40,544 bases of DNA, from contig CAIWWH010000136.1 in NCBI GenBank assembly GCA_903916385.1, forward strand, positions 1-40,544. The letters are read 5' to 3'. How positions within the stretch are numbered: the first letter of the stretch is position 1; every line of letters starts with the position of its first letter. Both the position numbers and the translations under genes were made by a program. Below, in pieces: positions 6,062 to 39,646 of this stretch. The notes beneath the pieces are model-generated. The model had not been told where the DNA came from. It made no database searches and worked only from the letters and a program-made list of their open reading frames with translations. The DNA is from an uncultured Actinomycetes bacterium (lineage in GTDB: Bacteria; Actinomycetota; Actinomycetes; Nanopelagicales; Nanopelagicaceae).

Positions 6062-7153
6062 GTGGGCTTTGGACTAGCAGATCTGTCGCAATCGATCTTC
6101 GCCTCGCTCGGTATACCAGGCACAGCCAACAGGCTCTCACTCTCGCCCTCACGACGCACCTGCCTCTTATTGATTGATGGAATGGGATCTGCATCACTCG
6201 CCGCCTATGGCGCGCAGTTCCCAATTTTTTCAGAGGTGAAGAGCACATTTGGACTCACCTCACACTTTCCATCGACGACGGTTACAAATCTGACGAGTTT
6301 GGGAACGGGGGAGTTGCCGGGAGTTCATGGAATGTTGGGTTACACGGTGCGCGTACCAAACTCAGGAACACCTGGACGCTTACTCAATCCGTTGAAATGG
6401 GATGACCGCGTTGATCCACTCTTTTGGCAGAAAGTCCCTACGCTCTTTGAGAGAGCATCTGCACTTGGTTTTAGTATTACAAATATCGCTGAGAAACGTT
6501 ATGAAGGTAGCGCCTTTACTCAAGCCGCACTTCGTGGAGCGCGATATGTCGGCGCTAATCGCCGAAATGAAATGGTTGAGGCGGCAGTCGTTGCACTTGC
6601 AGAGCCCAACTCTTTTTCATACCTGTATGTCAACGGTTTAGATCATGCTGGACACAATGATGGCGTTGGTAGCGAGAAGTGGCTGCTAGCCCTCGCTGAA
6701 GTTGCAGAGTTGATTTCAGGCCTCGTCGCAAAGTTACCTAAGAACACCGACCTTTATGTAACCGCGGATCACGGCATGGTCAATGTGGGCGAGAAGGTCG
6801 TGTTGGGTGTCGAGAATAATTTGATGAAGAATGTAACTTTGGTCGGTGGAGAACCACGTGCCCGTCATATCTACGTGGCGGAAGGAGCCCTCGATGAAAC
6901 CGTTGCGCTATGGCGAGAATTTCTGGGAGAGCGCGCGACTGTTTTTTCTAAGAGTGAAGTGATCTCAAATAATTTATTCGGCGAAGAAGTTTCAATCGAG
7001 AGCTTTGATCGCATGGGTGACTTTATTGCAGTTGCCAATGGCGAAGTAATTTTGATCGACCCCACACGAGTTCCGCAGGAATCGGCGATGGTTGGACACC
7101 ATGGTGGCGTGAGCGATTACGAAGTTGCTATTCCTCTTCTGAAGTTCCTTTAG
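6062..7153 (+). CDS. Alkaline phosphatase superfamily / nucleotide pyrophosphatase-phosphodiesterase-like protein
   Basis: A 363-residue protein of the type I phosphodiesterase/nucleotide pyrophosphatase group. Metal and nucleophile motifs are visible in order: LLLIDGMGS (first metal Asp), TVTNLTSLGTGELPGVHGMLGY (nucleophile Thr region), NGLDHAGHNDG (Asp/His pair), VTADHGMV (Asp-His) and GHHGG near the C-terminus. No signal peptide is evident, so a cytoplasmic hydrolase is likely; the substrate is unknown. GTG 6062 gives a start consistent with the domain. Longer frames would run antisense into the topoisomerase A gene, and CAGGAT lies six bases before this GTG. Its 3' end overlaps the convergent sepH gene by 26 bases. 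Confidence 0.82.
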   Translation: MGFGLADLSQSIFASLGIPGTANRLSLSPSRRTCLLLIDGMGSASLAAYGAQFPIFSEVKSTFGLTSHFPSTTVTNLTSLGTGELPGVHGMLGYTVRVPNSGTPGRLLNPLKWDDRVDPLFWQKVPTLFERASALGFSITNIAEKRYEGSAFTQAALRGARYVGANRRNEMVEAAVVALAEPNSFSYLYVNGLDHAGHNDGVGSEKWLLALAEVAELISGLVAKLPKNTDLYVTADHGMVNVGEKVVLGVENNLMKNVTLVGGEPRARHIYVAEGALDETVALWREFLGERATVFSKSEVISNNLFGEEVSIESFDRMGDFIAVANGEVILIDPTRVPQESAMVGHHGGVSDYEVAIPLLKFL

Positions 7154-7964
7154 ATCCACCGAACATGATGTCATCCCATGACGGGATCTTTAGACGCTTG
7201 GTAATTCCATCGCGCTTCTCGGCCTCAGAGACCTCTTCTGTCTGACTTGGACCGCTATTGATGATGGCATCTAGCCCAGAGGACTTTGCAGAATCTACGC
7301 TTCCGCTCTGATCGACCGGTTCGCGGACGGCAACTAATCGGGGCGCGGGAGTCGTGGAGGGGTAAACAATTCCATGCGATGGAGATTGAGCGGGTGCTTC
7401 TAGATCGTCGCCAGAGATCCACGCAGCACCGTCATCAAGCGCTTCAAGGTTGCGATTAGGTAGATCAAAGGACCAGTTTGCCTCGCTTATTCCTCCACCT
7501 TTCGTCGGATAGAAGAGAACGATGTTCCACGTGCCATCGTGTAAGCGCCAGGTATTCCACTCCACAAGGGTCATGTCGACACCACGAGGAGCGAGCTGCG
7601 AGATCGTGGCGGCGGACAGTGTGGGTGCGTGCTTCTCTTTGCGGAGTTGCGCGGCGAGGGCAAGGCCAATCACATAGGCGCGCTCTTGCAAGATAGGGCC
7701 AGAGAACTTTTCGACTTTCTCGGGAGTCCAGTCTGTAGAGCGAGCAATCGCATCGACAGTCTCACCGCTACGCAACCTGGCCTGCACCTCTTTGACGGTA
7801 ACGGCGGAGTGTTCTTCTTCATCAACCACTGCAACGAGACGTGGTTGGTTCACGAGCGCGCGTAACTCATCATCAAGTTCGACCGTAAAGGTTTCGCCCT
7901 CTGCGGATTGAAACTTCAGGCTTTTGCCATCCTCGGTCCGTCCGATTAATCGTAATTCGCTCAC
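7128..7964 (-). CDS. sepH: SepH, actinobacterial FtsZ-regulating cell-division protein (DUF3071)
   Basis: A 278-residue protein. The N-terminal SepH domain runs from VSELRLIGRTEDGKSLKF through the AT-hook-like segment VKEVQARLRSGETVDAIARS and the helix-turn-helix-like WTPEKVEKFSGPILQERAYV. A low-complexity linker leads to a short conserved C-terminal motif, KIPSWDDIMFGG, which in known SepH proteins is characteristic. SepH binds FtsZ and stimulates Z-ring assembly in Streptomyces and mycobacteria. The GTG at 7964 matches the family N-terminus; upstream in-frame sequence (to 8186) is antisense to the MFS gene and was rejected. CACTCT lies six bases before the GTG, a weak TANNNT-like -10. Confidence 0.9.
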   Translation of the reverse strand: MSELRLIGRTEDGKSLKFQSAEGETFTVELDDELRALVNQPRLVAVVDEEEHSAVTVKEVQARLRSGETVDAIARSTDWTPEKVEKFSGPILQERAYVIGLALAAQLRKEKHAPTLSAATISQLAPRGVDMTLVEWNTWRLHDGTWNIVLFYPTKGGGISEANWSFDLPNRNLEALDDGAAWISGDDLEAPAQSPSHGIVYPSTTPAPRLVAVREPVDQSGSVDSAKSSGLDAIINSGPSQTEEVSEAEKRDGITKRLKIPSWDDIMFGGSKGTSEEE

Positions 7965-8019
7965 GAGCAAAGAGTGCCACAAGTGGGAGGGCAAGGTTGG
8001 GAACTGGGGTGGAACTGGA

Positions 8020-9216
8020 CTAGTGATCTGAGATGCGGCGCCAGGTTCGCAGGTAGGGAAGGGTGGCGAGGTTCGCCAGTAGAAGACAAGCCATCGGAAC
8101 GACGAAGGCTTTGCTCGCTCCCTGGGAGTCAATGATGTGACCAGTAAGAGTGCCCGGCAAGGCTCCACCAAGGGAGAGCCCAGCAATGACCCAAGAGAGG
8201 GTTTCAGTCACCTTTTCAGCTGGTACTGATTTCTCTGCAACGTTGTACCCGGCGACAATCAGCGGGGCGACTCCGATTCCTGAGAGAAAGAGCGCGATCG
8301 CGAGGGCAACCATCGAGTGGATGAAGAAGAAGGGAATAGAGAGCACCAAGATTGCACCGAGGTTGATGCGAAAGCGTGAAGCATCCTTCAACTTCCACTT
8401 AATCGATCCATTGAAGATTGCGGCTACTCCACTGCCAGCGGCCCAGATGGCGAGGACTAGCCCAGTGTATGGCGCATCATGGTGTTGTTGGGCATAACCC
8501 ACGACGGTCAGATTAGTTGAGCTAAAGAAAGCTCCGATAAAAATGAAGGGAAAGAAGACGGCCTGCACAACTGGCATGGCGAGAACAAATCCATGCTTCC
8601 CACTCTCATCTTTCTTAAATGGTGCGGGCTCTGTAGAGCGCTGCGAGATGAAAAGGGTGGTGCCCACTGCCATGAAAGAGAATCCCATGATCATTCCAGC
8701 GGCGGGAGAGATAAAAGTTGCCGCTGAAGTCGCTACGAGCGGTCCAATGATGAAGATGATCTCGTCCATCAAAGCCTCGTAGGAATACGCAGTATTGATC
8801 ATCACGCGATCTTCATTGAGGACCCAGAGCCAGCGTCGGCGCGTCAGCCCTCCAACATTGGGGAGAAAGACCTCTGCGAGAAATATGGCTGTCATCCAGA
8901 CATAAGTTGGCGCATGGTGGCTGATCGCAATTAAAAAGATGAGATCGAAGGCGATGTAGAAGGGGATGGTGTAACGAAGTACCTTGCGCTGCCCTAGTCG
9001 ATCGGCATATCTTGACCAGGTCGGGCTAAAAACGGTGGAGATAAGGGCAGCTCCAGTCGCGACTGTTCCAGCCAAGGTATACGAGTGTTTAACATGAACA
9101 ATCACAAATGTGATTGACAGAAGGGTCATCGAGATAGGCAAACGCGCTATCGACCCAGCGATGGAAAATCGTAAGGCTCCCGGTACCGCGAAAAGTTTGC
9201 GATACGGTGAAAACAT
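8020..9216 (-). CDS. MFS transporter
   Basis: A 398-residue membrane protein with about twelve hydrophobic segments and the cytoplasmic loop 2-3 motif RYADRLGQRKVLRY, the major facilitator signature (G-x3-D-x2-G-x-R/K). A cytoplasmic loop with charged residues (TEPAPFKKDESGKHG) separates the two six-helix halves. The substrate cannot be predicted; the family in this neighbourhood is usually annotated as a putative drug or sugar exporter. The ATG sits exactly six bases after a minus-strand TAGAAT, so the gene is predicted to be leaderless. It is transcribed divergently from the inositol phosphatase gene with only 15 bases between start codons. Confidence 0.88.
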   Translation of the reverse strand: MFSPYRKLFAVPGALRFSIAGSIARLPISMTLLSITFVIVHVKHSYTLAGTVATGAALISTVFSPTWSRYADRLGQRKVLRYTIPFYIAFDLIFLIAISHHAPTYVWMTAIFLAEVFLPNVGGLTRRRWLWVLNEDRVMINTAYSYEALMDEIIFIIGPLVATSAATFISPAAGMIMGFSFMAVGTTLFISQRSTEPAPFKKDESGKHGFVLAMPVVQAVFFPFIFIGAFFSSTNLTVVGYAQQHHDAPYTGLVLAIWAAGSGVAAIFNGSIKWKLKDASRFRINLGAILVLSIPFFFIHSMVALAIALFLSGIGVAPLIVAGYNVAEKSVPAEKVTETLSWVIAGLSLGGALPGTLTGHIIDSQGASKAFVVPMACLLLANLATLPYLRTWRRISDH

Positions 9217-9231
9217 ACCTAGATTCTAGCC
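9217..9231. promoter_or_regulatory. 15-bp divergent leaderless promoter with overlapping -10 elements
   Basis: The whole intergenic region is 15 bases and contains the palindrome CTAGATTCTAG (9219-9229). On the plus strand TAGATT (9220-9225) ends six bases before the ATG at 9232. On the minus strand TAGAAT (positions 9228 down to 9223) ends six bases before the ATG at 9216. The two -10 hexamers share positions 9223-9225, so polymerase could open only one direction at a time. Confidence 0.7.
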
Positions 9232-10017
9232 ATGAAGCAGAGTTCGCAAATTGAGTTAATAGATGAACTCCTCGCACTGGCCGAGGGGATTGCGCAACGC
9301 GCTGGAGAGTTGTTGAGTGAGCGCCCCGAGAACTTCGATATCAATCAGAAGAGTTCAGCACGCGATTTTGCGACGCATATGGATCACGCGAGTGAGAAGT
9401 TAATCGTCTCTGCTATTTTGGCAGCGCGCCCCGACGATGGAATCATCGGTGAAGAGGGCGCTAATCGCGAGAGTGAATCCGGAATCACCTGGGTGATCGA
9501 CCCAATCGATGGAACGGTTAACTATTTTTATAACCTGCCAGGGTGGAATATCAGCATCGCGGCTAAGGATGCGCAGGGGGTTCTCATCGGGGTCGTCTAC
9601 GCCCCTACCCTCAACTCGCTCTGGCACGCCAGTCGAGGGGGAGGTGCGTTTCTGAACGACCGCCCGATCCACGTGTCGACCGCCGATGCCCTCGAGGATT
9701 CTCTGATCGCTACGGGTTTCTCGTATGACCTCGCCGAGCGGGTTCGGCAGGGGGAGCAGATTGCCGCCCTCATTCCGAGGGTCAGGGATATTCGCCGCAA
9801 CGGGGCAGCCGCCGTCGACCTGTGCCACGTGGCCAGTGGCGCGGTGGATGGCTACTTCGAGACAGGCTTAAAGGAGTGGGATTTGGCCGCTGGAGGTTTG
9901 ATCGCTCGAGAAGCTGGAGCCCTTGTTACCGGGCGAAAGGGGGCCCCGGCAGGGGAGGCGATGGTGATCGCCGCCGGAGCGGCCCTCCACGCTCTGCTCC
10001 TGGAGGAAATTGGCTAG
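9232..10017 (+). CDS. Inositol monophosphatase family phosphatase
   Basis: A 261-residue metal-dependent phosphatase. The family signature is complete: GEEG (residues 73-76), DPIDGTVNY (90-98) coordinating the two to three magnesium ions, and the C-terminal [15 protein letters not shown]. It would hydrolyse inositol-1-phosphate, or alternatively histidinol phosphate or another sugar phosphate; sequence alone does not separate these. In many actinomycetes trmD precedes rplS, whereas here this gene does. A TAGATT -10 lies six bases before the ATG with no Shine-Dalgarno sequence, predicting leaderless translation. Confidence 0.88.
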
Positions 10018-38976: not shown

Positions 38977-39023
38977 AATAGTACTATGAAACATATCTAA
39001 TAAGTATGTTTCATAGTACTATT
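38977..39023. promoter_or_regulatory. AbiEi operator and leaderless abiE promoter
   Basis: A perfect 19-base inverted repeat: AATAGTACTATGAAACATA (38977-38995) and its complement (39005-39023), nine bases apart. Each arm contains the smaller palindrome ATAGTACTAT. The -10 TACTAT (39017-39022) lies in the right arm and ends six bases before the ATG at 39029. AbiEi antitoxins repress their own promoter by binding inverted repeats, so this is a likely autoregulatory site. Confidence 0.8.
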
Positions 39024-39028
39024 GAGCC

Positions 39029-39646
39029 ATGAGGAAGACATTGGCATCATTAAGACAAGGGGTTTTGCGACCTCAGGATGTCATCAGCATCTACACACAA
39101 CCCCACGTGCAGTTCCGCAGACTAGAAAAGGACGGAGTGCTCCTAAAGATTGCTCACGGCTACTACGCGCTGATCCCAGAGGCGAGCAGGGGGAGTAGAT
39201 GGCGCCCGGAAGTTGAGTCTCTGGCTCTTGGAATCGGCCAGGCAGATTATGGGGTTAACGGAGCCGTCTTGATGCATTTGTCAGCTGCTCGGCTCCAAGG
39301 TGCCATTCCTCGTGCCATTGCTGTCGCGGTTGTCGCCATTCCAAAGCAAAGGCCCATGCTGCAAACCCCTTATGGTCGAATAGTCTTTGTGCAGAGAGAC
39401 ACAGCGCGTTTAAAACGCATGAAGGTCAAGACCGAACTGGGAGAAGGATGGTCTACAAACAAGGAGCAAACGACACTTGATTTAGCGCGGAGACCCGATC
39501 TGGTTGAGGGAATGTCATCTGTTGCGCACGAAGCGGCCCGTACATTGTACTTTCTGAGCGATAAGAATAAATTGGATTTAATTGCAAATGATCAAAGATT
39601 AAAATCTGCTCTTGGTCGAGTGACTCAATGGGCTCAGAATGCTTAA
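39029..39646 (+). CDS. abiEi: AbiEi-type antitoxin
   Basis: A 205-residue protein. An N-terminal winged-helix part (VLRPQDVISIYTQPHVQFRRLEKDGVLLKIAHGYYALIP) is followed by the AbiEi-like C-terminal domain with VNGAVLMHLSAARLQGAIPRAIAVAVVAIPKQRP and the conserved EQTTLDLARRPDL segment. It is predicted to neutralise the downstream nucleotidyltransferase toxin and to repress the shared promoter. The 3' end overlaps the toxin gene by eight bases. The start follows TACTAT by six bases. Confidence 0.86.
   Translation: MRKTLASLRQGVLRPQDVISIYTQPHVQFRRLEKDGVLLKIAHGYYALIPEASRGSRWRPEVESLALGIGQADYGVNGAVLMHLSAARLQGAIPRAIAVAVVAIPKQRPMLQTPYGRIVFVQRDTARLKRMKVKTELGEGWSTNKEQTTLDLARRPDLVEGMSSVAHEAARTLYFLSDKNKLDLIANDQRLKSALGRVTQWAQNA

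Follow-up and report, generated by a model that had tools for sequence, protein, structure and literature searches.

A 15-base divergent junction with overlapping -10 boxes as a probable bidirectional leaderless promoter in a genus of Nanopelagicaceae

Gene and box arrangement at the junction

The DNA under study, referred to here as the window, is a stretch of 40,544 nucleotides from an uncultured member of the Nanopelagicaceae. It carries a gene for an MFS transporter and a gene for an inositol monophosphatase family protein (IMPase) that diverge from each other, and the septation protein gene sepH lies downstream of the MFS gene on the same strand (Table 1). The MFS ATG occupies 9216-9214 on the minus strand and the IMPase ATG 9232-9234 on the plus strand, leaving a gap of 15 bases, 9217-9231, that reads acCTAGATTCTAGcc. 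The whole of 9214-9234 is CAT ACC TAGATTCTA GCC ATG, and within it the 11-mer CTAGATTCTAG (9219-9229) is a palindrome except at its centre. The likely start of sepH is a GTG at 7964, located 55 bases past the MFS stop, and no TANNNT box was present 6-7 bases ahead of this GTG. It is possible that sepH is the second gene of an MFS transcription unit and is co-transcribed with the MFS gene.

Table 1. Genes and proposed promoter elements at the junction, in window coordinates
Feature	Coordinates	Strand	Basis
sepH (septation protein)	7128..7964	-	NCBIfam SepH, 166 bits against a cut-off of 40
MFS transporter, 398 aa	8020..9216	-	Pfam PF07690, 72 bits; start kept in relatives
-35-like TTGCGA, putative, for the plus promoter	9197..9202	+	17-base spacer to the plus box; inside MFS codons 5-7
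Proposed bidirectional leaderless promoter core, intergenic	9217..9231		Sequence; equal length in 19 of 32 genus genomes
-10 box TAGATT of the IMPase family gene	9220..9225	+	TANNNT six bases before ATG; invariant in 19 distinct junctions
-10 box TAGAAT of the MFS gene	9223..9228	-	TANNNT six bases before ATG; invariant in 19 distinct junctions
Inositol monophosphatase family protein (IMPase), 261 aa	9232..10017	+	Pfam PF00459, 209 bits; start kept in relatives

The original prediction described the gap as a 15-base palindrome with a TANNNT box six bases before each ATG and with -10 boxes that overlap by three bases, and both descriptions were exact when read off the sequence. TAGATT and TAGAAT each end 6 bases before their own ATG, within the 6-7 bases typical of leaderless starts, and they share 9223-9225, which gives the overlap of opposite-strand -10 elements that is characteristic of bidirectional promoters. 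Each box begins with TAG, which also acts as an in-frame stop codon four codons ahead of the ATG that the box serves; neither the MFS gene nor the IMPase gene can therefore begin farther upstream. Both genes thus lack an upstream in-frame start, and both have a conserved start position. The complete pattern of both boxes and both ATGs, CATN3TANANTNTAN3ATG, is expected to occur 0.01 times in the window.

Promoter statistics were collected from sampled stretches of seven genus genomes that together cover 607 kb, some of which are orthologous, so that the counts are not fully independent. The distance between TANNNT and candidate starts peaked at a spacer of 6, with 123 occurrences compared to about 8 at most other spacers, and the same ORF-anchored counts were 28 and 19 at spacers 7 and 8. 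In this lineage, then, starts are signalled mainly by TANNNT at spacer 6, so that leaderless transcription is to be expected; the same arrangement is a known signature of leaderless genes in actinobacteria (PMC3160421; PMC3898074). When leaderless starts were aligned, C was favoured at -1 and -2 and A at +1, and there was nearly no -35 signal, just a weak C at -32. Anchoring to ORF starts was needed to see the signal. Counted over the whole genome without it, TANNNTN6ATG was no more frequent than its reversed control because most matches lie away from gene starts, and this uninformative raw count was replaced by the ORF-anchored histogram. That raw count, and the fact that TANNNT is short and frequent, would suit a chance resemblance with the true translation or transcription starts located elsewhere. 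Such a coincidence is extremely unlikely given the low expectation per window, the in-frame TAG stops directly upstream and the conservation of the exact gap length across the genus.

Conservation of the junction and of its separate halves

A scan of 32 genus genomes with the full pattern returned 18 sites, 17 of which were the MFS/IMPase junction, and the reversed-pattern control returned one site. The MFS start codon is GTG at the junctions of three genomes (G015, G028 and G030), and when GTG starts were counted the 15-base junction was present in 19 of the 32 genomes. Conservation in relatives had been put forward as a check on the original prediction, and it was borne out in both length and sequence. 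Across 19 distinct junction sequences the gap was always 15 bases long, with no variation in the box, spacer or start position of either gene. The nine-base core TAGATTCTA did not vary, even at the N positions of TANNNT, nor did the C at 9218 and at 9230, and the only variable gap positions were 9217, 9219, 9229 and 9231. The mean pairwise difference was 0.08 in the gap, compared to 0.21 and 0.43 in the first 60 bases of the MFS and IMPase genes, respectively, and 0.28 deeper in the MFS gene. Among junction-bearing genomes the MFS identity to the window ranged from 58 to 96%, so the conservation of the junction is not merely a matter of recency. In the IMPase tree, the deepest split of the genus separates two groups that each include 15-bp junctions. 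This fits a single origin at or before the genus ancestor followed by later losses, with the direction of change left unfixed by the tree alone. The entire junction was present twice in the G007 bin, in copies that differed slightly (G007:C57 and G007:C120), probably due to a strain mixture or bin contamination.

In most relatives that lack the MFS gene beside the IMPase gene, sepH is the direct divergent neighbour, so that the MFS gene has apparently either been lost from between sepH and the IMPase gene in these genus members or been inserted there in the others. Inspection by eye showed that relatives without an adjoining MFS gene mostly keep TANNNT 6-7 bases ahead of the IMPase ATG and lack the palindrome, and that MFS homologues in other genera retain a TANNNT of their own at 6-7 bases upstream. 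An MFS homologue in G016 that is unlinked to the IMPase gene has TAGAAT six bases before its GTG and has neither the plus box nor TTTGCG; being only 58% identical, it may be a paralogue. Several other actinobacterial genera retain the gene order IMPase, MFS and sepH (window 7128-9216), and in other genera with the same divergent pair the start codons were seen by eye to lie farther apart, with separate boxes. Since single halves occur in relatives and separate boxes in other genera, the 15-bp form appears to have arisen by fusion of two leaderless promoters that already existed.

The single halves also bear on the nature of the palindrome, because where one partner is missing the half of the other occurs as TANNNT at promoter distance. 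Being a nearly perfect inverted repeat of 11 bases between divergent genes, the palindrome could instead be the operator of a regulator, replacing the two -10 boxes. We consider this very improbable and rejected it, since CTAGANTCTAG was found once in the genome and hence is shared by no regulon and recurs at no other promoter. The families of the two flanking genes are not those of transcription regulators. An operator that exists in addition to the promoter is possible.

The same geometry was present in 10 of 395 genomes of the class. At the sites examined outside the genus, only one of the two sides carried a gene of substantial length, and these sites were not counted as double-leaderless pairs. 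Among them are those of four genomes of one other genus (L138-L141), in which a similar palindrome of the TAGACTCTA type stands where a LysR-family gene begins; the opposite side has no long ORF, and the palindrome is possibly an autoregulatory site. An 18-bp version of the pattern was no commoner in the genus than its control. A second compact divergent pair in which both genes appear leaderless was observed in two genomes, L118 (G012:C2 49553-49582) and L131 (G028:C23 116630-116659). It has a 28-bp gap with back-to-back boxes, AGTCTA..TAGACT, between ORFs of 873/885 aa and 135/145 aa. The window itself contains another divergent gap, 38994-39029, where the gene at 39029 has a TACTAT box immediately preceded by an inverted repeat, ATGAAACATA..TATGTTTCAT, and G002 (L099) has a very similar stretch.

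A -35-like element within the MFS coding sequence

At the junction, TTGCGA is the sole -35-like element that is conserved. TTGCG was present in all 19 junctions and the final A in 18 of them, and a Lys-to-Asn replacement at MFS residue 7 (L161) left TTGCG intact. MFS codons 2-7 showed a synonymous difference of 0.08 compared to a gene mean of 0.57, the lowest value among all six-codon windows. In six MFS homologues unlinked to the IMPase gene (L064-L067, L079 and L084), the Arg-6 codon varied between CGC, CGA and CGT. This pattern of constraint supports a location of the putative -35 of the IMPase promoter inside the MFS gene. The conservation of TTGCGA could partly be a general codon effect at the 5' end, because several other genes here likewise show reduced synonymous change at their starts and because TTGCGA is not a lineage consensus; genome-wide there was no -35 motif beyond the weak C at -32.

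On the IMPase side, the junctions of relatives held no comparable conserved -35-like element for the minus promoter, which probably relies on its -10 box alone. The minus strand does carry a TTTGCGA at 9250-9244 that resembled a symmetric -35; relatives do not conserve it, and it was dismissed as chance. The expectation that any -35 element would lie inside the opposite gene is matched by a conserved element in the plus direction only.

It can be asked whether only one direction is truly leaderless, most likely that of the MFS gene, with the other box a by-product of the palindrome and its gene transcribed from elsewhere. TAGAAT does stand 6-7 bases upstream of MFS homologues in other genera (L086, L087 and L094), and -10 elements are inherently near-symmetric (PMC10268837). 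Against this, both boxes with their spacers and starts are fixed across the 19 junctions, and the IMPase gene keeps TANNNT at 6 or 7 bases in most relatives without the MFS gene as well as in genera with separate boxes. The sole conserved upstream element, moreover, serves the plus direction, and we regard a one-sided arrangement as unlikely.

Proposed mode of action and relation to known promoters

The 15 bases are very probably a bidirectional promoter for the housekeeping sigma factor from which both messages are leaderless. The original prediction had proposed a bidirectional leaderless promoter, and the comparative evidence favours it through the invariant core, the conserved starts, the lineage signal of TANNNT at spacer 6 and the halves that occur alone. 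From the sequence and its conservation we infer the start sites, the binding of polymerase in two orientations, mutual exclusion and the use of the -35-like element. RNA polymerase would have two alternative orientations in which to bind the near-palindromic TAGATTCTA core. In the first it would melt TAGATT and start at 9232, the A of the IMPase start codon, and in the second it would melt TAGAAT and start at 9216, the A of the MFS start codon, giving two leaderless messages. The plus direction would be aided by TTGCGA within the MFS coding sequence, and the minus direction would work from the -10 box alone. The two bound states would overlap, allowing one polymerase at a time.

This mutual exclusion is a physical expectation rather than a demonstrated regulatory effect. 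Opposing polymerases are unable to bind simultaneously at bidirectional promoters (PMC10268837; PMC12825309), and the predicted exclusion of one direction by the other is sound in this steric sense. An effect on expression does not necessarily follow: at the five bidirectional promoters tested in E. coli, competition did not matter because basal activity was too low (PMC12825309). Only tentatively do we put forward the fuller reading, namely a genus-conserved and obligatorily double-leaderless bidirectional promoter with a 16-bp start geometry and a 3-base box overlap, in which all core bases serve both directions, the -35 lies in the codons of the opposite gene, and polymerase competition couples the MFS-sepH unit to the IMPase gene.

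The junction shows how far two leaderless promoters can merge. Nine bases contain the two -10 boxes together with the upstream in-frame stop of each gene, and they fix the start codons of the two genes; this arrangement has been retained across the genus. Together with the halves that stand alone in relatives and the wider, separate versions in sister genera, it provides a natural series on coordinated versus competitive expression.

The geometry of bidirectional promoters was taken from the work of Warman, Grainger and co-workers (PMC10268837; PMC12825309). As in these prokaryotic promoters, the junction has near-symmetric -10 elements that overlap on opposite strands, could be bound by polymerase in either orientation and would sterically bar double binding. 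Their common start-site spacings are 18, 10 and 23 bp, with small variations allowed (PMC12825309), whereas the predicted starts at the junction are 16 bp apart, and the junction boxes overlap by 3 bases compared to 5 at the 18-bp spacing. Divergent starts 10 bp apart are reported to be common (PMC12825309), so the description of the junction as close to the minimum possible divergent promoter was too loose. Unlike in the known bidirectional promoters, both products at the junction are coding and predicted to be leaderless, with the start sites fixed by the start codons.

The junction also resembles the leaderless genes of actinobacteria, including those of M. tuberculosis, in having a TANNNT some 12 bases upstream of the start codon, a weak or absent -35, a purine as the first base and a favoured C at -1 (PMC3160421; PMC3898074). 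Such genes normally have one promoter per box, whereas here two promoters share bases. In the literature searched we found no double-leaderless pair that shares -10 bases, which is weak evidence of absence since subscription journals were largely outside the search. The divergent M. tuberculosis pair prpD / Rv1129c is similar in that both genes were mapped as leaderless, but their starts lie 120 bp apart (1254630 and 1254510) and the promoters are separate, unlike at the junction (PMC3898074). The junction thus belongs to a kind that is already known, both from bidirectional promoters and from leaderless actinobacterial genes, and its double-leaderless 16-bp geometry is a compact variant of it.
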